Of a DNA stretch of 53,953 nucleotides, positions 19,689 to 41,643 are shown piece by piece. This DNA comes from Aquificales bacterium (lineage in GTDB: Bacteria; Aquificota; Aquificia; Aquificales; Aquificaceae). Position numbers and translations under genes: made by a program. The notes under the pieces are model-generated. The model had not been told where the DNA came from, ran no database searches, and was given only the letters and a program-made list of their open reading frames with translations. Every line of letters starts with the position of its first letter. The stretch's first letter is position 1. Where the stretch lies: contig JALWBR010000044.1 of assembly GCA_027037055.1 (NCBI GenBank), forward strand, positions 1 to 53,953, written 5' to 3'.

Positions 19689-20801
19689 TTATATACTCCC
19701 TTTGATATTGTCATCCCGCTCTTTTGATTGGGTCAAATACCAGTCGTAGGTTCTTTTAATACCTTCGGTCAGGCTTATGCGGGGTTTCCATCCCAACTCG
19801 TTGATCTTTGAAATATCAAGGAGCTTTTTGGGTGTGCCGTCGGGTTTTGAAAGGTCATGTTTTACCTTTCCCTTGTAACCCACTATCTCTTTAACGAGGT
19901 AAATCAAATCTCTCAGTTTTATATCCTCTCCCGTACCGACATTAACGAAATAATCGGGATTAAGCTTCTTCATGTCTTCCGCATCCACATTTTCCATTAA
20001 AAAGACACACGCATCCGCCAGATCTTCTACATATAAAAATTCCCTGTAAACATCTCCCGTTCCCCATACAAGTATATGATCCTTTTTTATTCCCGCCTTA
20101 TCAAGGGCGGATTCAATACTGTTCTTATCTTTTAAATCTATTAGCCCGTCTAAACCGAATCCTAAGGGATTATTTTTTATATCGCTTATTATTCCTTCCC
20201 AGTCGCCTTCCATAAGTAATTTGCCCAAGTGGAATTTTCTTATCAGGGCGGGCAGTACATGGGATGTTTCAAGATTAAAGTTATCACCAGGTCCGTATAG
20301 GTTTGTGGGCATGACGGATATGAAGTTGGTTCCGTACTGTTCGTTGTAATACCTGCAAAGTTTTATGGCTGAAATTTTGGCTATGGCATAGGGTTCATTG
20401 GTTGATTCCAGTATTCCCGATAAAAGGTATTCCTCTTTCATGGGTTGGGGGCAATTCCTCGGGTAGATGCATGATGATCCGAGATTCAGAAGCTTTTCCG
20501 TTCCGTGCAGATATGCGGAATTTATTACATTAAGTGCGATGGCAAGATTGTCATAAATGAATTCAGCCTTGTATGTATTATTTGCGAGGATACCCCCCAC
20601 CTTTGCAGCTGACAGAAAAACCCAGTCGGGTTTCTCCTTTTCAAAGAATCTATTTACAGATTCCTGTATTCTCAGGTCAAGTTCGCTTCTTGTTTTATAA
20701 ACAAGGTTAGTGTAGCCCTTTTCTTCAAGCTTTTTCTTTATATGGGATCCTACAAGACCCCTGTGTCCCGCGACGAATATTTTAAGGTTACTTGATCCTT
20801 T
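19689..20801 (-). CDS. fcl: GDP-L-fucose synthase
   Basis: About 370 aa from the ATG at 20799-20801 ([14 protein letters not shown]). A longer start at 20867 lies inside gmd. The enzyme converts GDP-4-keto-6-deoxymannose to GDP-L-fucose. Visible are the NADP motif GHRGLVG, the active-site LGSSCIYP and the catalytic [12 protein letters not shown] (YxxxK). Between HLGKL and [13 protein letters not shown] lies an insert of about 50 residues not in the 321-aa E. coli enzyme. It is coupled to gmd by a 14-base overlap and is the last gene of the polysaccharide cluster. Confidence 0.93.
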
Positions 20802-21936
20802 CATAAAGCGAGTAGTCATGGTTTGTGTATCTAAAGTTTTTCTCCGCGGATATACTGATACCTTCACCTATGGGATCTATACCTATCAGTTTCATATCAT
20901 AGTCCACCATTATCTTTATCAATTCATCAAAGCTCACACGCGGTTCCCATCCGAGCTTGTACCTTGCCTTTGTTATATCCGCCTGAAGGTGATCAACCTC
21001 TGTTGGTCTGAAATACTTCGGATCTATTTCAATAACTATATCTCCCTCCCTTAGGACATCTTTCCATCTGTTTATTACGCTTTTTATAATACCCTTTTCT
21101 TCAGTACCTTCTCCCCTCCATTCAAGCTCTATGCCAGCATACTCAAATGCTTTTGTTACAAACTCTTTTACCGTGTGGCTTTCTCCCGTACCTACAACAT
21201 AGTCTTCCGGTGTTTCCTGCTGGAGCATAAGCCACATAGCTTCAACATATTCGGGTGCAAAGCCCCAATCCCTTTTTGCGTACAGATTTCCGAGGAATAG
21301 CTTCCTTTGATTGCCCGCCAGGAGATTTGCCAAACCCCTTGTTATTTTCCTTGTTACAAATGTTTCGCCCCTGCGGGGTGATTCATGATTGAACAATATA
21401 CCGTTGCATGCAAATATGTTATAAGCTTCCCTGTAGTTTACGGTCATCCAAAAAGCATAGACCTTTGCAACCGCGTAGGGGCTTCTCGGGTAAAAGGGTG
21501 TTTTTTCATTCTGGGGTGGGGGAGAAGCTCCGAACATCTCCGACGAAGAGGCTTGATAAAACTTTGCTTTTATACCGCTCCTCCTCAGTGCTTCCAGCAT
21601 TCTTGTGGTTCCCAGGGCGGTTATATTGGCGGTGTATTCGGGCATATCAAAGGATACCCTTACATGTGATTGGGCGCCGAGGTTGTAAATCTCGTCGGGT
21701 TGGATATTCCATATAAGTTCCGTAAGAAGACCCGCATCGGATAGGTCTCCGTAGTAGAGAAACAGTCTTGCTTCTGGATCATGAGGATCCACATATATAT
21801 GTTCTATCCTATGTGTATTGAAGGTTGAAGCCCTTCTTATAATTCCGTGAACTTCGTATCCCTTAGATAGGAGATATTCCGCCAGATAAGAGCCGTCCTG
21901 ACCCGTTATACCAGTTATTAGTGCCCTCTGCGGCAT
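20788..21936 (-). CDS. gmd: GDP-mannose 4,6-dehydratase
   Basis: The 382-aa SDR enzyme makes GDP-4-keto-6-deoxy-D-mannose, the substrate of the next gene. The N-terminal NADP site is [15 protein letters not shown]. The catalytic segment has [10 protein letters not shown], then [15 protein letters not shown] (YxxxK), and [15 protein letters not shown] follows as in all Gmd. The C-terminal [16 protein letters not shown] is also conserved. AGGGGAGG precedes the ATG. Together with fcl it supplies GDP-fucose (or GDP-rhamnose-type sugars) for the surface polymer. Confidence 0.96.
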
Positions 21937-21969
21937 GCCTCCCCTCCTTCAGATATTCGCGAAATGTCA

Positions 21970-22764
21970 TTATAAATCATCACAAGGTCCTTGCGACTGC
22001 TTTTTGTTTATATCTTTATATCTTCTATTTATATCCCTCATAAGCAGATAAACGAAGTATGTATTCGTGTATGCATATCTCTTCATCAAACGACGGGGTT
22101 CTTGCATTAATCTGAACAGCCATTCAAGAGCCAACTTCTGCATCCACCTTGGAGCGCGCTTCCTGAGACCTGCATAAACAGGGAATGCCGCACCCACTCC
22201 CAACATAACCGCATGAATCTTATCTTTCATTTCCGCCATAAATTTTTCCTGATTCGGGCATCCGAGTGATACAAAAACCATATTTGCCCCAGAATTGTTT
22301 ATCATTGATGCTATCTCCTCCTTCTCCGTATCATTCAACTTCCTGAAGGGTGGTGAAAACATCCCCCCTATCCTAAGGTAGGGATGATCCCTTTTAAGTT
22401 TTTTGCTTATTGCATCAAGTACGGGTTCTGTGGATCCGTAAAAAAAGACGGATAAGGATCTTTCTTCCGCTTCCCTTATAAGATCTGGAAGCAAATCCAT
22501 TCCTGCAACCCTGTCCTGTTTTATTCCGTACAGCATTCTTAGTGCATAAACTATGGGCATACCGTCCGGTGTAACTATGTTTGCGTTGTTAACCCTGCGG
22601 GCAAAATTCTTGTTCCTGTAAGCTTCTACGGTCATGTGGACATTAGCAATACACACGTACGACGACACCTTTTCTTCCGCAAGCGACAGTATGTTCTCTA
22701 TAAATTCCTCGTACTTCCCTATGGATACATCTATGGATATTACCCTTTTCCTTTCAAGCTTCAT
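21970..22764 (-). CDS. WecG/TagA/CpsF-family glycosyltransferase
   Basis: The 264-aa GT26 enzyme has the family blocks TPDGMPIVYALRMLYG, RVAGMDLLPDL, FYGSTEPVLDAI and VSLGCPNQEKFMA. GVGAAFPVYAGLRKRAPRWMQ and LEWLFRLMQEPRRLMKRY follow. These enzymes transfer a sugar such as ManNAcA or ManNAc onto a lipid-linked intermediate, usually early in repeat-unit assembly. It is peripherally membrane-bound through its C-terminus. The ATG overlaps the upstream glycosyltransferase stop (ATGA). Confidence 0.92.
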   Translation of the reverse strand: MKLERKRVISIDVSIGKYEEFIENILSLAEEKVSSYVCIANVHMTVEAYRNKNFARRVNNANIVTPDGMPIVYALRMLYGIKQDRVAGMDLLPDLIREAEERSLSVFFYGSTEPVLDAISKKLKRDHPYLRIGGMFSPPFRKLNDTEKEEIASMINNSGANMVFVSLGCPNQEKFMAEMKDKIHAVMLGVGAAFPVYAGLRKRAPRWMQKLALEWLFRLMQEPRRLMKRYAYTNTYFVYLLMRDINRRYKDINKKQSQGPCDDL

Positions 22765-23924
22765 ACTCTGCTTCTTGCAAGTTTGTATATTTCCATCAAC
22801 ATCTCGTAGTTCTTTTCTGCTGTATATTTATCTTCAAACTCTTTTCTTGCTTCAATACCCATGACTTTCATCCTTTCTGGGTTCTCCCAGCCCCACCTTA
22901 CCTTATCCGCCAGATCTTCAGGATTACCCGCTTCAAACAAAAGCCCCGTTCTCCCATCTTCCACAATCTCCGCCATTGCACCCAGCCTTGAAGCAACAAC
23001 GGGAAGACCAGTGGCAAAAGCTTCTGCTACGGCAAGGGGAAAGCTCTCGTAACACTCCGAAGGAAACACAAGCATAAGGGCGTCTTTCATCAGGCGGAAG
23101 ACCTCTTCCCTCGGTTTCCTTCCTAAGAACTCCAGATTATCAAGCCCTTCCCTCCCTGCAAGGGATTTAATTTCCGACATAAGGGGACCCTCACCCACTA
23201 TTTTTATCGGAATATCCTTTAGATTTTTCCACGCCCTTAGGAGTGTGGGGAGTCCTTTCTCCTGCGATAATCTTCCTACGAAGAGGACATATTTACCGCC
23301 GTGATCACCTTTACCCGGATCGGGATAAACAAAGTTCGGCTTAACAACGATCTTTTCCGCGGGGAGACCGCCTTCAATAAACTTCTTCTTTGCAAACTCC
23401 GTAAGGGCAATATAGATATCCACCTTTTCCTGCCATGTTTTTAAAAGACGGTGAAGGGTGAGCATGGATGTAACGAGTGCGGTACCGATATACGAACCCC
23501 GCCAGCAGGCATTCAAAACTCCCTGCCAAGGTACGGATTTCCCCACACAATCCTCACATGCAGTACCACCCCGCATCAGAAGTGCACCCGGACAGATAAG
23601 ACGGTAATTGTGAAGGGTTTGAACAACGGGAACACCCTCTTCCTTACAGGCATAATAAGCGGAAGGAGAGATCATAAAAAAAGTATTGTGAAAGTGGGCA
23701 ACATCAGGCTTTGTATCCATAATTAGATGTTTAATCTTTCTATATGCGGACCGCGACCATATCATATTAAGAACCTTTAACGGATTTCTCCCATTCAACC
23801 TGGCATTATCCTCAATAAAGGTAATAACCCTATGTCCTTTGGACTCTAACAGGGTTTTTTCTGCATTGAAGGCTGTATCTTCACCTCCGTGTATTCGGTA
23901 GAGATTGTGGGTTAGCAATATCAC
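22761..23924 (-). CDS. GT4-family glycosyltransferase
   Basis: A 387-aa GT-B enzyme with a GTG start overlapping the polymerase gene stop. The acceptor half has NLYRIHGGEDTAF and a Cys cluster (CEDCVGKSVPWQGVLNACW). The donor half has VLFVGRLSQEKGL, IVGEGPLMSEI and the EX7E-type block FPLAVAEAFATGLPVVASRLG. It uses a nucleotide sugar to extend the lipid-linked saccharide on the cytoplasmic face. The sugar specificity cannot be read. Confidence 0.9.
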   Translation of the reverse strand: MILLTHNLYRIHGGEDTAFNAEKTLLESKGHRVITFIEDNARLNGRNPLKVLNMIWSRSAYRKIKHLIMDTKPDVAHFHNTFFMISPSAYYACKEEGVPVVQTLHNYRLICPGALLMRGGTACEDCVGKSVPWQGVLNACWRGSYIGTALVTSMLTLHRLLKTWQEKVDIYIALTEFAKKKFIEGGLPAEKIVVKPNFVYPDPGKGDHGGKYVLFVGRLSQEKGLPTLLRAWKNLKDIPIKIVGEGPLMSEIKSLAGREGLDNLEFLGRKPREEVFRLMKDALMLVFPSECYESFPLAVAEAFATGLPVVASRLGAMAEIVEDGRTGLLFEAGNPEDLADKVRWGWENPERMKVMGIEARKEFEDKYTAEKNYEMLMEIYKLARSRV

Positions 23925-25285
23925 CGCAATTCACCGGTTTTTAATCTTGACCCAATCCATAGGCCTGTTAGAGCGACCCAAACAATTGTGATATATGCAA
24001 AACCCATCGCCGGCTGGCCTAAGCTCGTTATCAATAGTGCAACCTGAAGAGCAAGCACCCAAGTGTTTTTAGTATCCTTTATTACTCCTTTTAAGGATGT
24101 TCTAAAGGCAAGGAACAAAATGCTGAGCCATGGAATAAGACCTACTATACCCATCCTTGCCCATATTTCCAGAAAATCGTTATGTGGTTTGCGGACAAGA
24201 GCCCCAGAACCAACCATAAAACCCTGAAATAAATCTAATCCCAGTCCCAAACCCACAACAGGTCCCAGAGGATTTCTCAAAACTTGCTGGATTACTGATG
24301 CCCATGCAACGAGCCTGTGTTGGAAACTTCCCGCACCGGGACCTTCTTTCCCCAAAAGAGTTGCAAGTTGTTCTATTATCGTATCAAAACCTACACCAAG
24401 CCCAAGCCTCCCTGTAATTGTGTTACCTAATGTTAAGACAAATAATAATATTAAAATTCCAGATATAACCAAGTGTTTCCATCTGTTTATCAGTGCTGGT
24501 CGTATAAGGAATGAAAGGATAATGCTAAGGATGAACGCTATATAAACACCTCTGCTCTGGACCATTAACATAATAATAAGCGTTGCTGATGTACCGAATA
24601 TACCCAAAAATCCTTTACGGTTCAAAAACCAGAAAAAGGCGGGAACACTTAAAAAACCTGCTGTTGTAAATTGAAAAAGGGATACGGGTCGTTGTATTCC
24701 CACAATTGGGCTTACTGATATAATGAACTCCCTAAACGGGTATAATAGGAACCATAAAATTGAGATTATAAATAGGGAACCAATTAGCCTTTCAGCCTTA
24801 TTATAGCCATAGTTGTAGCCAAGTAATATTGCAGGGAAGATCGTCCACAATTCAAATACGAAAAGAGCATCCCTCGGTGCAAGCAAGCCATATTTAGGTG
24901 TATCAACAATTAATCTCAGTAGTACTATTATAGTTAACAAAGTTAACAAGATAAATAAATTCCTTATTAATGGTATTTTTATAAGTTTCCACCAATAAGG
25001 GAGTGAGGCTATAACTGCAAACCATGCTAATGCATCAACCAAAGGTAATGGCCTAATAAGGGTTATATTGTTAAAACCGTATGACCAAACTGCAAGACCG
25101 AATAATGGAATAAGAAGTCCATATTTCCAGATATTCTTATCATAAAGCAATATAGTTGATATAAATAATACGCTTAGTATAAGCGCTGATATTTCCGGCC
25201 TTAATGAGGTAACAGCACCTAACAAAATTGCACCAACAATAATAAGAAACTTTTCGTTGTAAGAAATGCTGAGAATGTTGCTCAT
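23921..25285 (-). CDS. O-antigen polymerase/ligase-like membrane protein
   Basis: A 454-aa protein with about ten to twelve hydrophobic segments and a large loop near residues 270-370. The loop ends in VVGLGLGLDLFQGFMVGSGALVRKPHNDFLEIWARMGIVGLIPW. The PHNDFLEIWARMGIVGLI block is the signature of the Wzy_C/WaaL (O-antigen ligase) superfamily. It could polymerise the repeat units or ligate them to lipid A. Position inside a Wzx/Wzz cluster favours polymerase. The ATG overlaps the upstream stop. Confidence 0.85.
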   Translation of the reverse strand: MSNILSISYNEKFLIIVGAILLGAVTSLRPEISALILSVLFISTILLYDKNIWKYGLLIPLFGLAVWSYGFNNITLIRPLPLVDALAWFAVIASLPYWWKLIKIPLIRNLFILLTLLTIIVLLRLIVDTPKYGLLAPRDALFVFELWTIFPAILLGYNYGYNKAERLIGSLFIISILWFLLYPFREFIISVSPIVGIQRPVSLFQFTTAGFLSVPAFFWFLNRKGFLGIFGTSATLIIMLMVQSRGVYIAFILSIILSFLIRPALINRWKHLVISGILILLFVLTLGNTITGRLGLGVGFDTIIEQLATLLGKEGPGAGSFQHRLVAWASVIQQVLRNPLGPVVGLGLGLDLFQGFMVGSGALVRKPHNDFLEIWARMGIVGLIPWLSILFLAFRTSLKGVIKDTKNTWVLALQVALLITSLGQPAMGFAYITIVWVALTGLWIGSRLKTGELR

Positions 25286-26535
25286 TTAATTAAAACCTGC
25301 CTGAAAATATTCAATATTTGGTCTTTTCTTTTCCCCCAGCTAAAATCTGTAGCGGTTCTTTTTCTTGCATTTTTGCTCATAAGTGTAAATAAGTTTTTAT
25401 CTTCTGCCAATTTTTTCATTGCATTTGCCATATCCTCAACAACCTGCTCAGGAGTAACAGCAGGTATCTTAAATCCTGTCTCTTCGGTAACCTGCAAAGC
25501 TGGACCGCCTATATCAAGACAGATTACCGGTCTTCCCGCCGCCATTGCTTCTACGCAAACCCAACCGCCCGAATCGTGCAAGCTCGGGTGGACAAGAACA
25601 TGACACTCTGCAAGCTTTTTAAGGGCTTCCCATCTCGGTAAAGCCCCCCAGAAGCGAACCTTATCCGCTACGCCCAGTTCCTCAGCCAGCTTTTCAAGAT
25701 TTTTGCGTTCGGGTCCGTTGCCCACTATCCAGTATTCGCTTTCCGGAAATTCTTTTACAAAGCGGGCAAAAGCCATGATACCGAGGTGAAAGCCTTTTAA
25801 ATGAAGAAGATTTCCCGAACTCAGGAATCTGAAGATATTTCCTTCAGGAAAAGAAAATGTGGATAAGTAGCTTATTTCTTCTTCGGGTAATGCAACCTGA
25901 GACAAAATCTGTACTTTTTTAACCCCGAGCTTGCAGAGACGGTCCGCCGTCTCTTTTGTGGTAGCAAGACCGATTGTTGCCCTGCGTGCTGTCATCCTTG
26001 TAAAAGGATCCCTTTCACCGATCCACCGTGCCATATCTCTTATCCTTTCATATAACCTACCCCTGAATGAGAAACTTTTGTAAAACGGTTTAGGGGTTGA
26101 CTCTCCGCCCCCTACCGGACCCCACACAAAAGAAACAGGCAATAAAGATAAGAAACTCGGCATCCAGTAGTTAACAAAAGTAACATGATGTACAATATCA
26201 AACCTTACTTCCTTATGTAACCTGCGGGCAACAAAATATATACATATTTGCCACAAATAATAATATAAATGAACACCTCGCTGACCCTTTTTCCAGAAAC
26301 GAGCCCACTTAGGAAGATCAAAGTAAACCCAGTGAACATTAGGCATAGGTTCTTTTTCTAAAGCTTCTTCGATGGCTTTCTTGTTATTAGACCGTGTTAT
26401 TACCCAAACCTCTTTGGCTATCTTGGAAATTTCCTTTACCCAGTTCCAGCCAACTCCCGGCTCGGAACCTTTGCCAGGTTCGCATGCATAGGCTGATAGA
26501 AGGACTTTCAACTTTTTCTTTTCAGGTTCTACCAA
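25282..26535 (-). CDS. GT4-family glycosyltransferase
   Basis: A 417-aa GT-B enzyme with an apparent TTG start (26535), 14 bases inside the preceding gene; no in-frame ATG lies close. The N-terminus has LLSAYACEPGKGSEPGVGWNW, a donor/acceptor cleft block typical of one GT4 subgroup. The donor half has YWIVGNGPERKNLEKLA, VHPSLHDSGGWVCVEAMAAG and RPVICLDIGGPAL. It acts in repeat-unit assembly, and the sugar is unknown. Confidence 0.88.
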   Translation of the reverse strand: MVEPEKKKLKVLLSAYACEPGKGSEPGVGWNWVKEISKIAKEVWVITRSNNKKAIEEALEKEPMPNVHWVYFDLPKWARFWKKGQRGVHLYYYLWQICIYFVARRLHKEVRFDIVHHVTFVNYWMPSFLSLLPVSFVWGPVGGGESTPKPFYKSFSFRGRLYERIRDMARWIGERDPFTRMTARRATIGLATTKETADRLCKLGVKKVQILSQVALPEEEISYLSTFSFPEGNIFRFLSSGNLLHLKGFHLGIMAFARFVKEFPESEYWIVGNGPERKNLEKLAEELGVADKVRFWGALPRWEALKKLAECHVLVHPSLHDSGGWVCVEAMAAGRPVICLDIGGPALQVTEETGFKIPAVTPEQVVEDMANAMKKLAEDKNLFTLMSKNARKRTATDFSWGKRKDQILNIFRQVLIK

Positions 26536-27625
26536 TTATTATTTCCTTTTCAATATCAAGAAGTTTCTGGGCAATTATTTCCGGCTTATAGTCTTGAATG
26601 CGAACTAAACTTAAAGAACGCAGCCGATCTCTTTCTTTAGGATTATTAATCAGATGAGCTATAGCTTCGGCTAATTTCTCGGGATCATCTGGAGGGACAA
26701 TGTAGCCATACTTACCATTGTCCAATATCTCTTTTGGTCCTCCAGGACATGAAGTGGCTATTACAGGTAGACCAAGAGCCATTGCTTCCACAATGACCAT
26801 TCCGAATCCTTCCCACCTTGAAGCGTGCACAAAAACATCGCTTGAGGCCATATAAGGATATGGATTTGAAACATATCCCAGGAAATTTACCTTATCTGCT
26901 ACTCCAAGAGTCTTTGATAATTCTCTTAGCTCGTTGCGCAACTGACCATCCCCGAGCACAGTTAATTTGAAGTTATTTATACCGTGATTATTAAGAATAT
27001 GAATAGCCTTCAGAATAACATCTACCCCTTTTTGATATATCAATCTGCTTACTGCTACTAAATTGCATGTTTTTGAATTCTTTTTCTCTTGTGATCCAAT
27101 TGTCCTCTTAATTGCTTCTATATTACAAGGATTGGGAAGTACATATATTGACTTTAAACCAATTTCTCTCTTAACCTCATTTGCGACATCTGATGATGTA
27201 GCAACTACTGCTGAACTTAATTTGTATATTGATTTCCGGAATGCTTTAGTCATAACCCTCATAAGTATAGGTAAATACGGTTCGTCATAAGATAAAAAAG
27301 TAGGTTCCCAGGGAATTACGGGAACATTAGAGACACTTCCTGCTATTAGGGTAGGGATAGCAACATGACTCGGTGTAGCTAATACAAATGAAGGCTGATA
27401 TTGCCTCAAGTACATCATTATAGGAAAAACTGCATATCTTGCTCTTGTACCTAAACCTATTTCTCTAATTTTGTCATTTACTTTTTTAATGCCTTTTGGG
27501 TCCTGTAAGAAAATTATGTCAACTCTTCTGTCATACTTTGATAATCCATCTGCAAGCCATCTTATCAACCTGGGAAAAGGTCCTCCAGAACTTCCCCATG
27601 TTATGAGAGAGATTGGTTTATTCAT
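26522..27625 (-). CDS. GT4-family glycosyltransferase
   Basis: A 367-aa GT-B enzyme. The acceptor half begins ITWGSSGGPFPRLIRWLADGL. The donor half has VAVSRLIYQKGVDVILKAI, LTVLGDGQLRNELRELS and VHASRWEGFGMVIVEAMALG, followed by LPVIATSCPGGPKEIL, all GT4 landmarks. It is part of the leftward train and overlaps the downstream transferase. The start has no strong ribosome site but gives the expected domain limits. Confidence 0.9.
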   Translation of the reverse strand: MNKPISLITWGSSGGPFPRLIRWLADGLSKYDRRVDIIFLQDPKGIKKVNDKIREIGLGTRARYAVFPIMMYLRQYQPSFVLATPSHVAIPTLIAGSVSNVPVIPWEPTFLSYDEPYLPILMRVMTKAFRKSIYKLSSAVVATSSDVANEVKREIGLKSIYVLPNPCNIEAIKRTIGSQEKKNSKTCNLVAVSRLIYQKGVDVILKAIHILNNHGINNFKLTVLGDGQLRNELRELSKTLGVADKVNFLGYVSNPYPYMASSDVFVHASRWEGFGMVIVEAMALGLPVIATSCPGGPKEILDNGKYGYIVPPDDPEKLAEAIAHLINNPKERDRLRSLSLVRIQDYKPEIIAQKLLDIEKEIIIGRT

Positions 27626-27632
27626 AATTTTC

Positions 27633-28448
27633 CTATTTAGGAAAAGCTAAAATATGGACTCCATAAGTACTCTGTCCTAATGTTTTCCATTTATATTCAA
27701 GTGATTTTAGTATTATTTCACTTTCTTTTTTGCTAACTTCATCATTAAATTCCAAAATTAAAAAAGGACGAAATTTCTTAAGTGATTCGTAGGCTCCTTC
27801 CAATACTTGAACTTCACCACCTTCAACATCAATCTTAATAAGATCAAGCCTGTCTAATTTTCTTTTATTCACATATTCATCAATAGTTGTCATTCTAACT
27901 TTTACACTTTTGGATCCAATTGGGCGATGAGCGGAACTTGATGTTCCGTAACCCCCTTCTGGATCCTCATGAACCCAAAATTTAACGAAACCTGATTTGT
28001 TTCCGACAGCTAAAGTTTCAACAGTTATATTTGAAAGTCTATTTACTCTTGCAGAATTCAGAATGCGTTCTTTAAGGAAATCTATAGGTTCAAATGCTAT
28101 TACTTTACCTTCTGGACCTGATAACCTACCCAATATGATCGTGTAATATCCAATATACGCTCCTATATCAAAAATGTTCCATCCTATTTGAACAGACCCA
28201 ATTAACCAATCTAATACATGCCTTTCATGATATCGGGTTACAAATAAACGCTCTCCAGGATGATCCATATTGACATATAGGTGAAGCTTCCATGGAAGAT
28301 CGGGGATTTCTAATAACTGAAGGCCCACTTTTTTGTATAATATTTTTCGGAAATTATTAATCCATTTCAATTCCAACAATTTATCTTTTAAGTGAGGTGG
28401 AATAGACCGAGATAAAGTTGCCATGCTTTTAGCAAGTAAGTGTTTCAT
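27633..28448 (-). CDS. FkbM-family methyltransferase
   Basis: A 271-aa product starting at ATG 28446-28448 (MKHLLAKSMATLS). GGAGG lies seven bases upstream, better than the longer possible start at 28532. The SAM-binding block is FDIGAYIGYYTIILGRL and the FkbM block is LDLIKIDVEGGEVQVLEGA, followed by ILEFND. FkbM enzymes usually O-methylate sugars, so a methylated sugar in the polymer is likely. The gene overlaps the 807-aa fusion gene by 20 bases. Confidence 0.88.
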   Translation of the reverse strand: MKHLLAKSMATLSRSIPPHLKDKLLELKWINNFRKILYKKVGLQLLEIPDLPWKLHLYVNMDHPGERLFVTRYHERHVLDWLIGSVQIGWNIFDIGAYIGYYTIILGRLSGPEGKVIAFEPIDFLKERILNSARVNRLSNITVETLAVGNKSGFVKFWVHEDPEGGYGTSSSAHRPIGSKSVKVRMTTIDEYVNKRKLDRLDLIKIDVEGGEVQVLEGAYESLKKFRPFLILEFNDEVSKKESEIILKSLEYKWKTLGQSTYGVHILAFPK

Positions 28449-30852
28449 TATAATTCCTCCGCCTATTAATTTCTTCAAAGGATGAAATTTTAGATGAAAA
28501 TATAGTTGACCAATAAATATAAGACAGATCAAAAGTTTTTTTTATTAATAAGTTTTCCATATTTATTGTTTGCCAATATCTAAAGCAACAAACATCTGTA
28601 AAAATATGTAAAAGTCGTTGATGAGTAATTGTTAAGTTGTGCTTTTCTATAAGTAATAGTTTTTGGAATCTGAAGTGGAATAAGTCATACCCCGCCGGTG
28701 CTTCTTTCATTGCATACTCCCAGTCATATAAATAGAGTTTTCCGTTAACCTGCATTGCATTCCAAGGTGTAAAATCACCGTGTGCAAGGTGTAGGGGGAC
28801 TTTTTCTCCCTTCCATTCTTCTTTTATAGATTCCATAGCTTCAACTATCCTCTCCTGCCAATAAGTATTCTTGATACTCTGAACATAATTGACCATTCGC
28901 TTCCAAAAATCTGTTTCTTCAAGAGGTTTCCATTTAACCCCCAATTCTGCCATTGCATGAACCGCGTTTATGTATTCTGATGTTAAATTACCTGGAGCTG
29001 TGCGTGCACTTGCGGGGGGCGGTCCCTGAATGCAGATTAATTTATCCTCAATCTCACTTAAGTAAATCAATTCAGGAATGTTAAAAGGTAGTTTGTGACT
29101 GGAAAGCAATTTTAATGTTTCCGCTTCATTAATAACAAGTTTCCTTGTTTCCTCGTTCCATCCCACTTTTGCATAGCCAAGAACTTTGCCTTTATCGGTC
29201 AATATCTGCAAGACGGGTTTACGGTGCGGTCCTGGTGTTCCGAGGGAGATTGATATGTGTATATCTCTTTCCGCGAAGACATCCCTTAATAGTTCTTTGA
29301 CTTCTTCAAGATCAATGTTTATTTTTGGCAATAGATGGTTGGCTACACCGCTTGATATTCCGAACCGCAATATTTCTTTTGCAATTTTCGTCTTCCTTTT
29401 CTGGGGTACATACATTGATAAACCTTTGACTGCGGGCTTTTTTGAGTTTGCAGGTAATAAATACCCCCGTCCATCAGGTAGAGCTACATGAAAGAAAGTT
29501 TCACCTTTATCGGTTATTTCCCCACCGAGGGCTTTTTCAAGCCAGTTTAGTTGATGCTTATTAGTTTGCGGGAAATATATGGCTCTCCGTGAAAGATATC
29601 GCTCATTCAGATAATCAAGGATAATATCACGAACCTGTTTTGCAACTTGATCCGGCGGTAGAGAGCCGTTAATTATAAAAGCATTAGGCAATTCAAGGGC
29701 GAGATTGCGATAGGCTTCCCGCTGGCGACTTACCTCTTGAGGTGAAACCTCCTGTTTACGCTTGAGGATCTCTTCTTCCGGAACATCTAAAATAAATACA
29801 AGATCGGGTCTTGGTATTAGCTTCCTTATCCAACGAACCGCCCACATAGGACCCCCGTAACGATAGCGTTTTGGATCAACAAGAATGTCGTCAAAGTAGC
29901 GGTCAAATAGAACAAGGGTTGATTTTACAAGTAATGGACGAATTTTAAACCAGTAACCAAGATTGTAATCTATCAGGTAATAAAGCAATTTTAAGAGGGA
30001 AATAAACAGCGCCCTTGGTGGTTTACCGTGCGGATCCGTAACGGGTCCTGTATTTTTCTTTTTTTTGAGGATACCGGGCATCAGGTGAAAAACTGCACTC
30101 CGCCGAAACGCTCCTTTTAATTCTCTTTCCAGATTCTTAATCAATGTGCTTTTACCTGCGCCATCTGGACCGAGGACAGCAATAAACAGTCCGGTGGGAT
30201 AAAGAATCCGCTTTATAATGCGGGGAATTTCACCAATCCAGTAGCGAATTGGGTTGAAAGGATCCTTTTTAAGCTTTTGTCTCTTCAATGTTTTTTTTAG
30301 CTTGTGGATTTGCCTATGAAAATCATCCCATTCTTCCCTTCTGATCCAATCTATTACCTGCCTTCCCAGTGATTCGCCCAAAAGTTCCATGGCAATTCCG
30401 TTTGCCCGATTTCCAAGATCATCAACCAGCTCTTTTAATCGTTTTGCTGTTTCTTTGGGAACTGAACCTTTAAGAATCTTTTTTACAAGAAGGTATTTAA
30501 ATTCAGCCTCTGGGGATGCAATCCAAAAATCATTCCATTTTCTCCTGCCTTTTAAGAGTTCTTCCGCCGTAAACCATATTCTTCCATCCCTGCGATAATC
30601 CGTCGCTGCATCTATAGGAATGAATCTGACATGATTTCCATTTCTAACAGCCAAAACGAAGTAGTAACATGTGCTTTCGTGTTGTATAAGATTTATTAAA
30701 CGAACATTACTTTCCTCAACTAACACTTTTGTTAATTTAGACAAACTATCTGGAGATATTGCGATATCTATATCAGAGGTTGCATGATTAGGTAGGTTAT
30801 GCCAATCATGTAGAACGCAATATCCTATATTGTCTAATTTTAATTTCCACAT
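28429..30852 (-). CDS. Three-domain fusion: nucleotidyltransferase-like, P-loop kinase, APH-like kinase
   Basis: An 807-aa protein. Residues 1-190 have HATSDIDIAIS (26-33), a nucleotidyltransferase-fold strand. Residues about 220-420 are a thymidylate-kinase-like P-loop domain (VLGPDGAGKSTLIKN at 226-240, LVLFDRYFDD at 313-322, LVFILDVPEEEILKR near 351-365). The last 250 residues contain HLAHGDFTPWNAM and LYLYDWEYAM, the HGDxxxxN and DxE blocks of aminoglycoside-phosphotransferase-like kinases. In this cluster it may phosphorylate a sugar, lipid or polymer end. The substrate is unknown. It overlaps both neighbours. Confidence 0.8.
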   Translation of the reverse strand: MWKLKLDNIGYCVLHDWHNLPNHATSDIDIAISPDSLSKLTKVLVEESNVRLINLIQHESTCYYFVLAVRNGNHVRFIPIDAATDYRRDGRIWFTAEELLKGRRKWNDFWIASPEAEFKYLLVKKILKGSVPKETAKRLKELVDDLGNRANGIAMELLGESLGRQVIDWIRREEWDDFHRQIHKLKKTLKRQKLKKDPFNPIRYWIGEIPRIIKRILYPTGLFIAVLGPDGAGKSTLIKNLERELKGAFRRSAVFHLMPGILKKKKNTGPVTDPHGKPPRALFISLLKLLYYLIDYNLGYWFKIRPLLVKSTLVLFDRYFDDILVDPKRYRYGGPMWAVRWIRKLIPRPDLVFILDVPEEEILKRKQEVSPQEVSRQREAYRNLALELPNAFIINGSLPPDQVAKQVRDIILDYLNERYLSRRAIYFPQTNKHQLNWLEKALGGEITDKGETFFHVALPDGRGYLLPANSKKPAVKGLSMYVPQKRKTKIAKEILRFGISSGVANHLLPKINIDLEEVKELLRDVFAERDIHISISLGTPGPHRKPVLQILTDKGKVLGYAKVGWNEETRKLVINEAETLKLLSSHKLPFNIPELIYLSEIEDKLICIQGPPPASARTAPGNLTSEYINAVHAMAELGVKWKPLEETDFWKRMVNYVQSIKNTYWQERIVEAMESIKEEWKGEKVPLHLAHGDFTPWNAMQVNGKLYLYDWEYAMKEAPAGYDLFHFRFQKLLLIEKHNLTITHQRLLHIFTDVCCFRYWQTINMENLLIKKTFDLSYIYWSTIFSSKISSFEEINRRRNYNETLTC

Positions 30853-31955
30853 ATTTTTTTATAATTTTCTAGAGCTTCAGATGCTATTTTGTTCCATGTT
30901 AGATGTTGAATAGCATAATAATATCCCCTTTCCCCCATTTTGTCCCACTCGTTTCTTCGTTTTATCATCTCTTCAATACCTGAGGCAATAGACTTAGGAT
31001 CAGGTTCAACAGTAATACCACATTCAGCTCTAATTACATGTTCAGCGCTCCCTGCCTGATTTGATACTATTATAGGCCTTTTCGCTAACATAGCTTCCAG
31101 AACAACAAAACCGAACCCATCATACCTGGAAGGAAGTATAAGGCAATCGTGTCTTGCAATTAGTGATATAGATGATTCATCGTAGTTAGAAGGAAGGAAA
31201 TGTACAATGTGATTTACACCTAAATCTTCAGATAACTTTTTTAGTTTATCTTTATCTCCCCAATCCGGACCCTGAATAATTAGTTTAATATTATCCTGAT
31301 TGCTAAGAAGTGATAAGGCTTCTATACAAAGATCAAGTCCTTTGGTGTATGCATCTATACGTCCGAGAAATACCAATGATATATGGTTGTTTCCTTTTTT
31401 TTCTCCTCTGGAAGTCACTTTATACACTACTCCCTTGACTTCTTCTGGATCAAAACCATTAGGTACGACAATTGCAGGTGTGTCAACCCCATACCTCCGG
31501 AGATAAGGAACATGCGACGAGGATAGAACTTGGACAGCTTTTGCTTTTTTAAGAACATATTGCTCAATGGGTTTATAAAGCCGTTTAATAAACCAGTTTT
31601 TTCTAAGTAATTCTGGATGATAGGGACCATGCGGAACTGCGATATATGGAATTCCTTTTTGATTGAGCCACCAGCCTAAAATAGCGATTTCTGGTATGAA
31701 CATTCCATTCAAAACTATAAGGTCAAATTTTTGATTAGACAGAAACCTTAGTAAATCCCATGGTAATGTCCTGGGGATTTTACTTTTTTGAAAGCGATGA
31801 ACAATAAATGTATCTTCACACCATTCGGATTTACTATTTCCCAAGCATAAGACATGAACCTCCTCAGATTTTCCTAAGGACTTAGCAAGTCCCCTAACAG
31901 CCTTTGTAGTACCACCAGGTCGTGGGTAATGTGCTAAGAAAAAACCAATTTTCAC
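30840..31955 (-). CDS. GT4-family glycosyltransferase
   Basis: About 371 aa from the GTG at 31953-31955, which overlaps the upstream FkbM stop as GTGA. A TTG at 31973 would lengthen it by six residues. The acceptor half has FFLAHYPRPGGTTKAVRGLA. The donor half has LVFLGRIDAYTKGLDLCIEAL, LIIQGPDWGDKDKL, LPSRYDGFGFVVLEAMLA and KRPIIVSNQAGSAEHV. It adds one sugar to the repeat unit. The specificity is not known. Confidence 0.9.
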   Translation of the reverse strand: MKIGFFLAHYPRPGGTTKAVRGLAKSLGKSEEVHVLCLGNSKSEWCEDTFIVHRFQKSKIPRTLPWDLLRFLSNQKFDLIVLNGMFIPEIAILGWWLNQKGIPYIAVPHGPYHPELLRKNWFIKRLYKPIEQYVLKKAKAVQVLSSSHVPYLRRYGVDTPAIVVPNGFDPEEVKGVVYKVTSRGEKKGNNHISLVFLGRIDAYTKGLDLCIEALSLLSNQDNIKLIIQGPDWGDKDKLKKLSEDLGVNHIVHFLPSNYDESSISLIARHDCLILPSRYDGFGFVVLEAMLAKRPIIVSNQAGSAEHVIRAECGITVEPDPKSIASGIEEMIKRRNEWDKMGERGYYYAIQHLTWNKIASEALENYKKICGN

Positions 31956-32689
31956 TTTATTTCTCTCTCCCAAATACTTGGATGTTCAGCATAAAGCATA
32001 TTTCTTTCTGGCCACAAGATGGTGCGGAAATTATGATATTTCAATGTAGCATATAAATCAGCGGGATTACCATGATACTCCATAGCAATTCTTTCTACCT
32101 TAGTTATCCACTTCTCTGCACATTCTTTAGTGAATAGTTTGAATTCGCCACCTTCAATATCTATTTTAAGAAGGTTCACTATTGGGATATCTCTAATCAT
32201 TTCGCTTATAGGAATTTTTGGAGTTTTGATAATTTTCTTAATGCCAACTAATTTCCGCTTTACAAGACTACTCATACCGGCATCTGCTGCTATATAAAAA
32301 TCTGCGGTCCCTTCATTGCAAGCAATAGCGCCTTGTAGTAGAGAAACTTTGTCTGTCAATTTGTTAATTGTTAAATTAACTTTAAGAAAGGAAGTTGCTT
32401 CTGGATTTGCTTCAACAACATATACATGGTTCACTAATCGTGCTGCATACACCGTAAATATTCCACAATGACCTCCCAAATCCACAATTACCCAATTATT
32501 ATTAACATCGTTTTTCCAGGGAGTATAAATTTCATCTATCCAAATCTCATTTATTACTTGAACATCGTAAGTACCAGCATATACTAACAAGTCAAAACCT
32601 GATCTAAGTCTATAAACTAAAGGCTGTTTGCTTAGAATGTTGAAGCGATCAAACAACGCTACATGCCAATTTTTATACTCTGAAAACAT
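31952..32689 (-). CDS. FkbM-family methyltransferase
   Basis: A 245-aa enzyme, the second FkbM protein of the cluster and only distantly similar to the one at 27633. The SAM block is VIVDLGGHCGIFTVYAARLV and the FkbM block is VNLLKIDIEGGEFKLFTKE, then IAMEYHGN. It probably methylates a different sugar or position. The gene is followed directly by a GT4 gene through a GTGA overlap. The upstream 190 bases hold only a small zinc-ribbon peptide frame. Confidence 0.88.
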   Translation of the reverse strand: MFSEYKNWHVALFDRFNILSKQPLVYRLRSGFDLLVYAGTYDVQVINEIWIDEIYTPWKNDVNNNWVIVDLGGHCGIFTVYAARLVNHVYVVEANPEATSFLKVNLTINKLTDKVSLLQGAIACNEGTADFYIAADAGMSSLVKRKLVGIKKIIKTPKIPISEMIRDIPIVNLLKIDIEGGEFKLFTKECAEKWITKVERIAMEYHGNPADLYATLKYHNFRTILWPERNMLYAEHPSIWEREIK

Positions 32690-32716
32690 TTTTAATGCTT
32701 TTGATATTTTTGATAA

Positions 32717-32836
32717 TTATTTACGAAATAAGTAATGAACCCCACATGAATTACATTTAAATATTGGCCAATTATTCCAATAACCTTCAGATACGATTGC
32801 ATTATTTTGACATATAACACATATTTGTTTATTCAT
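32717..32836 (-). pseudogene. 39-codon zinc-ribbon peptide, probable remnant
   Basis: A short frame, MNKQICVICQNNAIVSEGYW, continues to FKCNSCGVHYLFRK and a stop. The CxxC...CxxCG pattern is a complete small zinc ribbon. It resembles the N-terminal metal-binding piece found before SAM-methyltransferase domains in polysaccharide clusters, with the catalytic part missing. It sits alone in the 189-base gap between the flippase and FkbM genes. It may be a relic of a deleted methyltransferase or a real small protein. Confidence 0.4.
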
Positions 32837-32878
32837 AATTTCGCGTTTTCAAAAGAAATATAAGTCTAATGTAATCAC

Positions 32879-34141
32879 TCACAATATATTTTTTTTAGCA
32901 ATCACAAATGCTAAAAGGTTATTTAAAATTAGACTCACTAAAGCCCCTAATATATCGTAAGTTAATAAAAGTGGAACTCCGATAATAATCATAGTGGCTG
33001 ATGTGATCACCCAAATACTTGTGACCTTTGCAATTTTCCCCAGAGCTTTTAACGCCACCATCAATATACCTGTAGCCATTGAAATCGTCATGCTTATCCC
33101 AAATAAGGCAACAAGAATCCAATCTAAATTATACTTTCCATCGTAAATGTAGTTTAGAATTGTTCCACTGTTTATTGATAAAAAAAGCGTGTAAAGGGCC
33201 ACAATTAGACTAAATAAAGTGGAAAACCTCATGACCCGAAGACGGTATATATGATTTGACATTCTACTACTGATCCACTTACTGAAAACTGGTAATAATA
33301 CAAGTCCTAGAGATTGAGTCAAAAGACCAACAGGTCTATACAAGTTCCAAATAGCTGCAATAGTTGCACTGGCGGACAACCCCAAAAATATAGGGATCAA
33401 CAGCATAAGTATTTGACCAGAGGCCCAGTACGCAATAACTCCTGTAAGGTTCCATGAACCATACCCCCAGTGATCCACAAGCACCATCCTGGGTGTCGGA
33501 TTACCCGAATATCCGACTACTTGGGGGCGAAGGTGGAAGGAAGTTAACATGAATGATGCAACCCCCGCAGCTACACCGAGTGCTACAATTCCCGTTAGTG
33601 TTGAAAGAGTTCCCACCTTCCATAGCAGGATTATTCCGAGCAATGTTGCAAGAAGATTGATACCGCTGGCTCCTACTGCCCACCCTTGCTTGAAATTGGT
33701 ATAACATGCTCTCCTTGTCAGCCACAAGAGGAGCAAAAAGGGGGACGCTACAGCTAACCCCAAAAGTGCTTCGCCCATAGGAGAACCTCTTTTAATAAAG
33801 AACAGTGCGGAAATCCCGAGGGCAAGGGCTATAAGAGCGGATACAGCCCAGTGACCCCAAAGTAGCATTCCGAGGTACTTTTTAAAGTGTTCCCTATACT
33901 TCCCCGCCCCGAATACCATCATGGGCTCTGTAATAACCGCGGTGTGCAAGCTCGCCAGAAGGTAAAAGATTGACATGGCTACCGCAAAGGCTCCGTATTC
34001 TTCGGGGGGAAGCCACCTTGCAAGGAGTATATTTACAATAAAGTTAGCGCCCGAGAAAAGCGCCTGATCTAAAACTGCAAGGCTTCCCTTTTTGGTCCAT
34101 CTTATTATTCTCGGTATATCAATTTTTTCCGTTTTCTCCAT
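32879..34141 (-). CDS. Wzx-like polysaccharide flippase
   Basis: A 420-aa integral membrane protein with about twelve hydrophobic segments in the MOP/oligosaccharide-flippase pattern. The N-terminal part has GSLAVLDQALFSGANFIVN and LLARWLPPEEYGAFAVAMSI (the family pattern A..L.P.eyG.f). These proteins move lipid-linked repeat units across the inner membrane. The start overlaps the 3-prime end of the Wzz-like gene by 23 bases. It lies next to the chain-length and export genes. Confidence 0.87.
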   Translation of the reverse strand: MEKTEKIDIPRIIRWTKKGSLAVLDQALFSGANFIVNILLARWLPPEEYGAFAVAMSIFYLLASLHTAVITEPMMVFGAGKYREHFKKYLGMLLWGHWAVSALIALALGISALFFIKRGSPMGEALLGLAVASPFLLLLWLTRRACYTNFKQGWAVGASGINLLATLLGIILLWKVGTLSTLTGIVALGVAAGVASFMLTSFHLRPQVVGYSGNPTPRMVLVDHWGYGSWNLTGVIAYWASGQILMLLIPIFLGLSASATIAAIWNLYRPVGLLTQSLGLVLLPVFSKWISSRMSNHIYRLRVMRFSTLFSLIVALYTLFLSINSGTILNYIYDGKYNLDWILVALFGISMTISMATGILMVALKALGKIAKVTSIWVITSATMIIIGVPLLLTYDILGALVSLILNNLLAFVIAKKNIL

Positions 34142-35282
34142 TCTTCAGTTCATTGTATTTTGTTTTTAGACTCGGGAGTTTTTCCATTGCGAGTGCTATT
34201 GATACACTCATGAAGAGTGAAAAGATAAAGGCAATGGCAATGTTTTGCTTTTTTTTGGGCTTTACGGGTTTGTTCGGTAGATAGGGCGGGTCTATGACTT
34301 CAACGAAGATGTTGTCCCTCTGTTCTTCAATTTTGGCTTGTTCATATAGCTTTAAGAGTGATTCATATTTGGTTTGCAAATTTTTTACTTTTACAAATAC
34401 CTTTTGGAACTCAGCCATTTTTTCGGGAGCCTGCTCTAAGCCGGGCAGGGCGGACATACCTTCTCCCTTCCTTTCTATACTTGATAATTGTCTATCTATT
34501 GCCCTTATTTGTTCTTTTATATACTTTATCTGCGGATTTTCCTCCGAGAGAACGCTCCTTAATCTTCTCAGCTCTATCTGTAAAGCTATCTTCTGTGATA
34601 TAAGTTCGGAGTAAAGCTTGAAGGATCCCTTTACCTGTTCTTCGGGAATTATAACCTTTTCCTGTCTTTGAAACTCGGTAAGCTTTGCGAGTGTCCTTTT
34701 TAATTCCTTCTCCGTGTCCTTCAGTTGTTGTTCTAAGAAAACCCTGTTTGCCTTTGCAAGAGTAAAGGATTTTTCATTAAGTATCCTTTGTAGCTCCTCA
34801 ATATAGGCACGGGCTATCTTTTGGGCTATGGCTGGGTCTTTGTACTCCACTCCTATGGTTATTACACCGGTTTTTTTCTTCTGTGATATACTTACCATGT
34901 CTTTTAAAACTCCCGCGGCTACATAAACAGGATCTATGTCCTCGGGTATTTCTTCAAGAAGCTCATCAACGAGATTAAGCTTTTTTATAACCCTTTCTTT
35001 TATAGTTCTGCTTTCTAACACCGCCATTATCTTTGCTGCTGGGTCCTGGGCTGTTAACGATATTCCCGAAAACTGTCCTATCAGTTCCGCTATACCCGGA
35101 ACTGTTTTACCCGAAGCTACCGGTATTATGGATGCTTCCGATCTATATATAGGAGTCAGTAAAAAGCTTACCACTCCCGCTGAAAGGGTTGTACATACAA
35201 CAATTAATATTATTATCTTTCTCCTTTTCAGGAGTATTTTTATTATCTCTTCATAAATCTGTAATTCCTTTTGTTCTTCCAT
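34119..35282 (-). CDS. Wzz-like polysaccharide co-polymerase
   Basis: About 387 aa from the ATG at 35280-35282 (MEEQKELQIYEEII), just after the upstream stop; a start at 35363 would lie inside the export gene. It has an N-terminal membrane helix (KIIILIVVCTTLSAGVVSFLL) followed by TPIYRSEASIIP, the Wzz start block. A long coiled-coil periplasmic part and a C-terminal helix come next, preceded by VIDPPYLPNKPVKPKKK, the Pro-rich Wzz end block. There is no C-terminal tyrosine-kinase domain. It sets polymer length. Confidence 0.9.
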   Translation of the reverse strand: MEEQKELQIYEEIIKILLKRRKIIILIVVCTTLSAGVVSFLLTPIYRSEASIIPVASGKTVPGIAELIGQFSGISLTAQDPAAKIMAVLESRTIKERVIKKLNLVDELLEEIPEDIDPVYVAAGVLKDMVSISQKKKTGVITIGVEYKDPAIAQKIARAYIEELQRILNEKSFTLAKANRVFLEQQLKDTEKELKRTLAKLTEFQRQEKVIIPEEQVKGSFKLYSELISQKIALQIELRRLRSVLSEENPQIKYIKEQIRAIDRQLSSIERKGEGMSALPGLEQAPEKMAEFQKVFVKVKNLQTKYESLLKLYEQAKIEEQRDNIFVEVIDPPYLPNKPVKPKKKQNIAIAFIFSLFMSVSIALAMEKLPSLKTKYNELKNGENGKN

Positions 35283-35284
35283 GT

Positions 35285-37681
35285 TTAAAGTCTCTGGGCA
35301 AGTATTGCTGTTGCCATTGCTTGGAATATAATTTGAACCACATCCTTTATAAGCGGTCTCCACATGGTAGGAACACTAAGTTTTGAAGGCACTACTATGG
35401 TATCACCCTCATCAAGGGTTATATCCATGAAGTCGCGGGCTATAAACAGCTTTCTGTTTTCCCATGAGAAGCCTTTAAACGAATTATGGTTCTTTCTTGA
35501 TACAACTTTACCGTTAGCTTTGATTATATAAATATTATCAAGATCCGCATCTTCTCCCGGTCCCCCCACATCGTTGAGATATTCCCTGACCGTTTTGTCC
35601 TTGATATAAGGGAGGGAAATCTGGTTATAGACATTTCCCAGTATTAACACATAGTTAGGTCTGGGCGGAACATAAATATAATCTCCGTCCTCAAGTTTTA
35701 TATTTGAGTAACTATCTTTTAGCTCCTCAAGGGTATCGGGTATATCAAGGGCTATTCTTCCCAATCCCATCTTAGCTTTCTGCTCTATAAGGTTTAACAG
35801 TTCTCTTTGCCTTTTGAGAGCCAATTGAAGGGCAAGTTTTTCTTCTTCTGAACCGCCCATAAAGGAGATTCCTTCTCTTGTCCGCGACAGGCTTTCCCTT
35901 AGTGTAAGAAGTGTTATTTGAAGGTGTTGTTGTTGAAGTCTTTTGGCGCTTTCCCTTATAAACACCAACCCTTTCGGGTAAGCATCTTCCGTATAACCCC
36001 CTGCTAATTTTAAAGCATCGTAAAGGGTCATTCCTTTTCTCAGTCTGTATATACCCGGTTTCTTTACTTCACCGAGAATTGTTACAGTTTTATCCTTCTC
36101 TGTAGGTTCTTTTAAACCTATCACTATTCTATCACCGGGCTTCAGGGTTATGTTCCCCACACCCTTGTTGAAAAGGTCATAAAGATAGACGGTTGCCATA
36201 ATATTTCCGTTTCTGAATATGTCCGCTTTTAATTCTTTTATCTCATAAAGAAAGGATATACTTCTTAAGGCTTCCATCAGGTCTATACCTTCGTAGTATT
36301 TTATTATTTTGGGATTTTTAATCTCTCCAGTAACCTCAATAGGGGGATAAACCCATTTAGGATAAAATCTTATAACATCAAGATTTTGTAGGTTTATATC
36401 CTCTTCTCCCTTGATAACCTTTATTGGAGAAAATACTATAACCTTAGGTTTATAGTGGGGAGGTTCAAACCTTATAATTTCCGCATAGTTTAGATCGGTG
36501 TCGGGCAGTGTCTTTATTTTGCCGAGTATTTTGCTTACGGTCGGATTTTCTCTGAGGGAGAAGTCTCCTGGATAGGCTACATGTCCCTCTACTTTTATTT
36601 TTTCAACAATTCCTTCTGGAGTAATCTTATTTACTATTACAAGATCCCCGTCCTTTACTTTAAACGCATCTATTTCGTCTATGGAGCTTTCATATACCTT
36701 TATTATGTTCCCCTCATACCTTTTGATCTTGATGGATTCTAAATAAGCGTCGGGGGTGGTTCCCCCCGCAAGATTTATTACATCAGCTATCGTACTTTCC
36801 TCTTTTAATTCGTATATACCGGGCCTTTTAACCGCTCCGGTTATTCCTACGGTTTTACCTACGGGCGGGACATATATAATATCGCCTTCCTTTACTTTGT
36901 AATCAACGGGGATACCGTTAATAAGGAAATCATAGAGATCTATGTGAATCTCGGTAAAGGTGTCTCCCTTTTTTCTTTTAATGATTATATTCCTTAAACT
37001 CCCGTTTTCGGATACTCCTCCCGCTTTTATAAGCACACTGAGTATATTATCTATACCCTGGGCTAAAACGGGTCCTGGTTTGTTAACAAAACCCGCGATA
37101 TAAACGGGAAAGGTTCTCAACTTGCCTATTGAGATGTCAACCCTGAAGTTTTTAAACCTCTTTGATAGCATATTGTTTAAGTCTTCCCTGAATTCACCTA
37201 CCGTTTTGCCCCATACATATATGTTTCCCAGTGACGGTATGAATATTTTTCCTTCCCTGTCAACTTCAACACTGTACATACTCTGTAATCCGAGAACATC
37301 CACAGGATCCCCCCAAAGATATATGATTATTTGATCACCGGGTCCGAGTATGTATTCATCTCCTACGGGTACTGGTGCTGATAACACGGGACGATAAAAT
37401 ATGTCGTAACCGAATTGTTTGATGTCCTTAATATCTTTGTTATTTACCTGTCCTGCCTTATTTACAATTTCCGCATTCTTACCTTCTACAAATACACTTG
37501 GAGGTGGGTATAGCTCTTGACCGGATTGTTTTATATCTCCGAATTCAAAACCCTTCTTATTTATTTGCTTATTTATACTTTCCGCGTTTCTGTTCTGTTT
37601 AAATATGTTGGCGGGTGGGGAAAATTCTTGGCTGAAAGATATATATATGAGAATCTGAAGGAGTAATAGGATTATTATCAT
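35285..37681 (-). CDS. Polysaccharide export protein with multiple SLBB domains
   Basis: A 798-aa secreted protein (signal peptide IIILLLLQILIYISFSQ). After an N-terminal 35-residue segment present twice, it has a poly-export domain (YILGPGDQIIIYLWGDP...), as in Wza. At least five SLBB repeats follow (for example VGITGAVKRPGIYELKEEST, VTILGEVKKPGIYRLRKGMT and VLILGNVYNQISLPYIKDKT). It should form the outer-membrane or periplasmic channel for the polymer. As the first gene of the 18-kb leftward cluster, its upstream region probably carries the main promoter. Confidence 0.9.
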   Translation of the reverse strand: MIIILLLLQILIYISFSQEFSPPANIFKQNRNAESINKQINKKGFEFGDIKQSGQELYPPPSVFVEGKNAEIVNKAGQVNNKDIKDIKQFGYDIFYRPVLSAPVPVGDEYILGPGDQIIIYLWGDPVDVLGLQSMYSVEVDREGKIFIPSLGNIYVWGKTVGEFREDLNNMLSKRFKNFRVDISIGKLRTFPVYIAGFVNKPGPVLAQGIDNILSVLIKAGGVSENGSLRNIIIKRKKGDTFTEIHIDLYDFLINGIPVDYKVKEGDIIYVPPVGKTVGITGAVKRPGIYELKEESTIADVINLAGGTTPDAYLESIKIKRYEGNIIKVYESSIDEIDAFKVKDGDLVIVNKITPEGIVEKIKVEGHVAYPGDFSLRENPTVSKILGKIKTLPDTDLNYAEIIRFEPPHYKPKVIVFSPIKVIKGEEDINLQNLDVIRFYPKWVYPPIEVTGEIKNPKIIKYYEGIDLMEALRSISFLYEIKELKADIFRNGNIMATVYLYDLFNKGVGNITLKPGDRIVIGLKEPTEKDKTVTILGEVKKPGIYRLRKGMTLYDALKLAGGYTEDAYPKGLVFIRESAKRLQQQHLQITLLTLRESLSRTREGISFMGGSEEEKLALQLALKRQRELLNLIEQKAKMGLGRIALDIPDTLEELKDSYSNIKLEDGDYIYVPPRPNYVLILGNVYNQISLPYIKDKTVREYLNDVGGPGEDADLDNIYIIKANGKVVSRKNHNSFKGFSWENRKLFIARDFMDITLDEGDTIVVPSKLSVPTMWRPLIKDVVQIIFQAMATAILAQRL

Positions 37682-41642: not shown

Positions 41643-41643
41643 G

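Follow-up and report, generated by a model that had tools for sequence, protein, structure and literature searches.

Exopolysaccharide clusters are rich in genes annotated as "hypothetical protein" and "phosphotransferase", and the locus studied here raises the question of whether two such genes can be parts of one module and, if so, what this module does. We analyzed a window of 53,953 nucleotides of an Aquificales bacterium, in which a sequence-only reading had noticed one chain of 807 residues carrying a DIDIA strand, a P-loop kinase and an HGDxxxxN kinase, fused within a glycan cluster. All three elements were located in a single frame (Table 1), with the DIDIA strand at residues 27 to 31, and both the fusion and its setting were borne out by Pfam, profile comparisons and the neighboring genes. 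The frame and the GT4 gene upstream of it overlap by 13 nt, the ATG falling within the 3' end of the GT4 gene, and in-frame stops occur almost immediately upstream of this ATG.

Table 1. Features of the three-domain gene and its surroundings in the window (residues are those of the 807-aa protein)
Feature	Position	Strand	Basis
Three-domain ORF, NTase-TMK-APH, 807 aa	28429..30852	(-)	No internal stop, ATG start
NTase domain, residues 1-200, PF14907/NTP_transf_5-like	30253..30852	(-)	hhalign to PF14907 profile; leave-one-out HMM
DID (D27, D29), two putative metal-binding acids	30766..30774	(-)	Invariant in 11/11 sequences
D81, putative third NTase acid	30610..30612	(-)	Invariant in 11/11 sequences
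TMK-like P-loop kinase, residues 215-425	29578..30210	(-)	Pfam Thymidylate_kin; subfamily profile vs canonical Tmks
Walker A GPDGAGKS, residues 228-235	30148..30171	(-)	Alignment of relatives
DR(Y) motif of the TMK fold, D317-R318	29899..29904	(-)	R invariant, D in 90% or more
Extension preceding the APH core, residues 430-540 (PRWLLP...YQP in relatives)	29233..29565	(-)	Alignment; profile
APH-fold kinase core, residues 541-780	28513..29232	(-)	Pfam APH; subfamily profile; nearest solved structure 4r77
HGDFTPWN catalytic loop, residues 691-698	28759..28782	(-)	H, D, F, N invariant in 10/10
DWE metal-binding motif, residues 710-712	28717..28725	(-)	D and E in 90% or more
Exopolysaccharide cluster: SLBB exporter, Wzz, flippase-like, two FkbM methyltransferases, GT4s	19689..37681	(-)	Pfam
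Same cluster, further genes: Wzy_C, WecG/TagA, GDP-mannose dehydratase, epimerase		(-)	Pfam

Genomic context

One gene of the cluster (32879-34141) has no Pfam match and was named flippase-like because it resembles a relative that matches PF01943 weakly. At the cluster edge, a small HEPN-domain protein (19219-19635) stands beside two genes without Pfam match, possibly a toxin-antitoxin pair. The contig carries a second polymer locus (336-3175), in which a BcsS-like gene lies beside a PilZ-containing cellulose-synthase-like glycosyltransferase. It also encodes a type III CRISPR operon (41623-49529) with Csm1/Cas10, a RAMP protein and a CARF-domain protein. Directly upstream of the Csm1/Cas10 gene is a 563-aa protein (39951-41642) with a C-terminal STIV_B116-like domain, the fold of the AcrIII-1/Crn2 ring nucleases. 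Two other readings of the three-domain gene, as a phage gene and as part of a defense system, were considered and rejected: it had no match among phage or viral contigs, and PADLOC gave only weak P-loop matches to defense systems.

Reality of the fusion

The sequence-only reading had itself raised the possibility of two genes joined by a sequencing error. This is ruled out by an independent contig (L026, JALXAE010000161.1), in which the frame continues unbroken from the TMK domain into the APH extension, with DNA that is 95% identical to that of the window, by the NTase-TMK part being a single ORF in seven distinct relatives, and by an independent fusion in Hymenobacter. In L026 the NTase has a gene of its own, accompanied by an FkbM-like gene and by the TMK-APH frame, which is cut off at the contig end, before the APH catalytic core. 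A degenerate TMK at the C-terminus of the L026 NTase gene, suspected from the alignment, was not supported (hhalign E 0.1).

The window and L026 share 94-95% DNA identity over two flanks (34509-33672 and 30173-29237 in the window). The 3.5 kb between the flanks show no similarity in DNA and are only distantly similar at the protein level, and one of the breakpoints falls within the TMK domain. This pattern looks like that of a strain-variable surface-polymer locus, with cassette exchange in the polymer cluster. L026 is a contig of 5.5 kb at low coverage, labelled Syntrophobacterales though parts of it are 94-95% identical to the window cluster; mis-binning or a recent transfer may account for this.

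Identity of the three domains

The Pfam search of the 807-aa protein gave two matches above the curated cut-offs, Thymidylate_kin (PF02223) at residues 228-406 (E 1.7e-10, 41.3 bits for a cut-off of 27) and APH (PF01636) at residues 575-724 (E 2.3e-5, 24.7 bits for a cut-off of 23.2). No Pfam model matched the N-terminal NTase part, which was found by profile comparison only. A profile of 12 sequences of the window-type domain aligned with a profile of 20 PF14907 (NTP_transf_5) proteins at 94-95% probability (hhalign, E ~1e-7), and all three acids lie within the 123 aligned columns. In the comparison with the PF14907 profile, a non-homologous control (the APH profile) gave 0.1%, and the generic NTP_transf_2 profile matched the NTase profile over 24 columns only. 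The PF14907 Pfam model itself had no direct match to the NTase of the window or of L026, and a leave-one-out HMM recovered both (E 4e-31 and E 5e-19, respectively). The same approach did not recover the Legionella and Hymenobacter domains, whose assignment is weakly suggested by motif position and weak profile scores. Hence, the N-terminal domain appears to be a nucleotidyltransferase of the uncharacterized PF14907 kind, with D27, D29 and D81 as the predicted three acids of a Pol-beta-type enzyme. AlphaFold gave pLDDT values of 41 and 36 from alignments of two to three sequences (window and L026 only).

The second domain belongs to the PF02223 superfamily by its score over the gathering cut-off and by its conserved Walker A and DR motifs, and the profile of its subfamily matched a profile of 21 canonical Tmks with 98.8% probability (E 1e-16). 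It shares with dTMP kinase (Tmk, TIGR00041) the fold family and these two motifs, but reaches only 33.7 bits against the equivalog cut-off of 83.25. The substrate motifs also differ: RPxLLP and, after it, a PH motif take the place of the canonical REPGGT loop, and the LFxADR motif, known to contact thymine in Tmk structures, becomes YYxxDY (YYLIDY in the window) with a change from Arg to Tyr, so that the thymine-binding F and R are not found. The genome of the window has a separate canonical tmk on another contig (G000:C3:11343-11894, 185 bits), whose nearest solved structure is 2pbr, an Aquifex protein, and this makes a host from the Aquificota probable. A dTMP kinase role of the window domain is thus ruled out by its score, by its differing substrate motifs and by the presence of a housekeeping gene.

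The third domain is assigned to PF01636 by its score and by the presence of HxDxxxxN and DxE/D. The APH subfamily profile recovers the window core at E 6e-116, a value that reflects a profile of which the window sequence is itself part, and its nearest solved structures are choline kinase 4r77 and aminoglycoside phosphotransferases.

Conservation among relatives

We extracted and aligned the ORFs of relatives from plasmids and from 395 Desulfobacterota genomes, obtaining 11 NTase-TMK chains and 10 APH sequences. The relatives are 18-31% identical, and the invariant columns include D27, D29, D81, the P-loop Gly and the R of the DR motif. That catalytic residues are among the invariant columns at so low an identity shows that the three-domain pattern is not due to chance. 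Judging from these alignments, the core catalytic residues of all three domains are intact; few positions are invariant across the around 12 relatives, and these residues belong to them. The sequence-only reading had named the metal-binding acids of the nucleotidyltransferase as a point to check and the loss of catalytic residues as the finding that would count against it; all three acids are kept, and we found no loss in the core motifs of any of the domains.

Distribution of the module

The genome of the window (1.67 Mb, 99.96% complete) has one copy of the three-domain gene. We found no other three-domain copy among 136 genomes searched in the phylum: the matches cover the TMK stretch only, and those inspected look like ordinary Tmks. 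In Leisingera, Agrobacterium and Legionella, the NTase-TMK chain and the APH kinase are separate genes of the same exopolysaccharide-type cluster. Five genomes have the two genes adjacent (G353, G310, G299, G229 and G420); in G353 they are in the same frame, a stop codon and 3 nt apart. The APH gene of G310 (L056 11346-12862) has an apparent frameshift that divides it into two overlapping ORFs. In the single chain of Hymenobacter the order differs, APH standing at the start and TMK at the end.

Profile scans of the 395 Desulfobacterota genomes found the APH subfamily in eight genomes and NTase-TMK in the same eight (hypergeometric p ~7e-17, or 4e-15 without the near-duplicate G229/G299); the profiles were partly built from these same sequences, which sharpens their own scores. 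Three further genomes match the TMK part only. In the first of these, a ninth genome (G084), the TMK gene overlaps the start of an APH-subfamily gene ended by the contig edge, and this incomplete gene (L060) opens with the same N-terminal extension as the APH part of the window. The second (G181, L134 7803-9541) has a TMK-like gene overlapped by a free-standing NTP_transf_5 gene (PF14907, E 3e-6, just under the cut-off), and in the third (G191, L135 7767-9831) the TMK-like gene adjoins a type I phosphodiesterase gene in a glycan cluster containing Wzy_C. No APH-subfamily gene was found nearby in the glycosyltransferase clusters of G181 and G191. A cluster of Streptomyces has a lone TMK-like gene and, two genes away, a phosphotransferase that matches the APH subfamily over the catalytic core only. 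A candidate for a separate NTase gene there (L112 10591-11406) aligns at the right motifs and was rejected, as its score is no better than that of a shuffled sequence.

The three parts thus occur together in one glycan cluster in the window and in relatives. The comparison of neighbors, which the sequence-only reading had proposed, places the parts of relatives in other phyla in exopolysaccharide or O-antigen-type clusters in every case. Taken together, the profiles and gene orders indicate one conserved module, of varied layout, in at least four phyla.

Proposed function and alternatives

We propose, with a probability of about 0.4, that the three enzymes form a dedicated module serving a Wzx/Wzy-type exopolysaccharide pathway, in which they would carry out phosphate-linked tailoring. 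The APH-fold kinase would place a phosphate onto the hydroxyl of a small alcohol, a sugar or a lipid-linked repeat unit, the TMK-like kinase would add a second phosphate to make a diphosphate, and the PF14907-type nucleotidyltransferase would form the phosphodiester, moving the phosphate-linked group onto the glycan before export. The TMK fold normally adds phosphate to phosphate, which favors an acceptor that already bears one. The maintenance across phyla of folds that phosphorylate hydroxyls, phosphorylate phosphates and make phosphodiesters fits such a phosphate-attaching relay. Since one chain joins enzymes that other bacteria encode separately in polymer clusters, the three parts probably act as one uncharacterized machine that adds a phosphate-linked group to the polymer or its precursor. 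We infer one substrate for all three domains, the order of the steps and the nature of the substituent; no sugar pathway from which the substrate could be deduced is common to the clusters. The sequence-only reading had suggested either a pathway enzyme or a terminal phosphorylation of the polymer. That the parts lie together in Wzx/Wzy-type clusters speaks for a role connected with the polymer and does not distinguish terminal from repeat-unit modification. A bolder version, which we regard as rather improbable, is a self-contained way of making glycan phosphodiesters without CDP- or UDP-activated donors: within one polypeptide, an alcohol would be converted to a monophosphate, then to a diphosphate, and be transferred directly by the PF14907-type domain. 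If true, it would give the PF14907 enzymes of glycan clusters a biochemical role.

The chain could also serve to activate a precursor. The APH domain would then phosphorylate a sugar at its anomeric position, as AmgK and NahK do, the NTase would move an NMP onto the sugar-1-phosphate and the TMK-like domain would recycle the NMP, which would yield an activated sugar for the polymer. In the AmgK-MurU salvage pathway, APH-fold anomeric kinases do pair with nucleotidyltransferases, TMK-fold enzymes use monophosphates, and a three-domain chain could channel intermediates. However, the known nucleotidyltransferases that form NDP-sugars have a different, GT-A-like fold, whereas that of the window is PF14907-like; among solved structures, the APH profile matched choline and aminoglycoside kinases rather than NahK; and several of the clusters already have ordinary NDP-sugar genes. 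We therefore consider this reading unlikely.

Another possibility is that the fusion is a non-functional by-product of cassette recombination, with functional relatives and a decaying copy in the window. The window NTase is shorter than its relatives by around 20 N-terminal residues and Met (HLMPGILK) stands for the conserved Arg of the family motif RPxLLP, two changes that may impair this copy; the recombination breakpoint with respect to L026 lies within the TMK domain. Yet the frame is open over 807 codons with all core catalytic residues retained, and the TMK/APH segment common to L026 keeps its frame at 95% DNA identity, which makes decay a rather poor explanation.

A role in the control of chain length or chain ends appears still less probable. 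The kinase would cap the polymer or a lipid-linked oligosaccharide, as WbdD does in O-antigens, with the help of the neighboring FkbM methyltransferases. This matches the terminal phosphorylation suggested by the sequence-only reading, and kinase and methyltransferase genes adjoin both in the window and in L026 (where FkbM is recognized from its ORF). But WbdD belongs to ABC-transporter systems, whereas Wzz and Wzy_C in the window cluster denote a Wzy-dependent system in which length is set by Wzz. Moreover, FkbM genes do not accompany the module consistently in the annotated plasmid clusters, and the NTase and the TMK-like fold would be left unexplained. Finally, a regulatory protein that senses or phosphorylates nucleotides or proteins to control polymer production would suit the sporadic presence of the gene and the many capsules regulated by kinases, but is very improbable, given that Pfam finds no sensor or DNA-binding domain in the 807-aa protein, that the Agrobacterium cluster has a separately annotated tyrosine autokinase and that HGDFTPWN and DWE are typical of small-molecule kinases.

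Comparison with known systems

Our searches in a library of open-access papers found no description of an NTase-TMK-APH module, in agreement with the sequence-only reading, which knew of no characterized function for this arrangement. The proposed phosphate-linked tailoring can now be approached through a natural three-domain fusion, which is a single protein to express and assay and makes the function of an uncharacterized class, with the PF14907-type nucleotidyltransferases of glycan clusters among its members, testable. From PF14907 (NTP_transf_5) proteins, the window domain differs by its fusion to kinases. A close match in gene content is, for example, the pair of Leisingera sp. NJS204 (WP_164982826.1 and WP_164982827.1), which has a 31% identical NTase-TMK chain and a kinase of the same APH subfamily in one cluster, but as two genes with an EpsG gene between them. 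With the APH and choline kinase (LicA) family, the C-terminal domain shares HGDxxxxN, DxE and the Lys and Glu of the N-lobe; it differs by its partner enzymes and by the conserved N-terminal extension of around 110 residues (PRWLLP, YQP).

In the phosphocholine decoration of the lic system (LicA-LicC-LicD), an APH-fold kinase and an NTase-fold transferase decorate a glycan. The window protein likewise combines an APH-fold kinase and an NTase-fold partner in a glycan context, but it is without a counterpart of LicC and has a TMK-like kinase instead; a single LicD sequence was found in 99 genomes. In the biosynthesis of pseudomycoidin, the phosphate placed by a kinase is extended with hexoses by a nucleotidyltransferase (PMC8498205). 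That system acts on a peptide and has one kinase only. In having a kinase-made phosphate that is then modified by a nucleotidyltransferase, it is the nearest biochemical precedent for the module proposed here.
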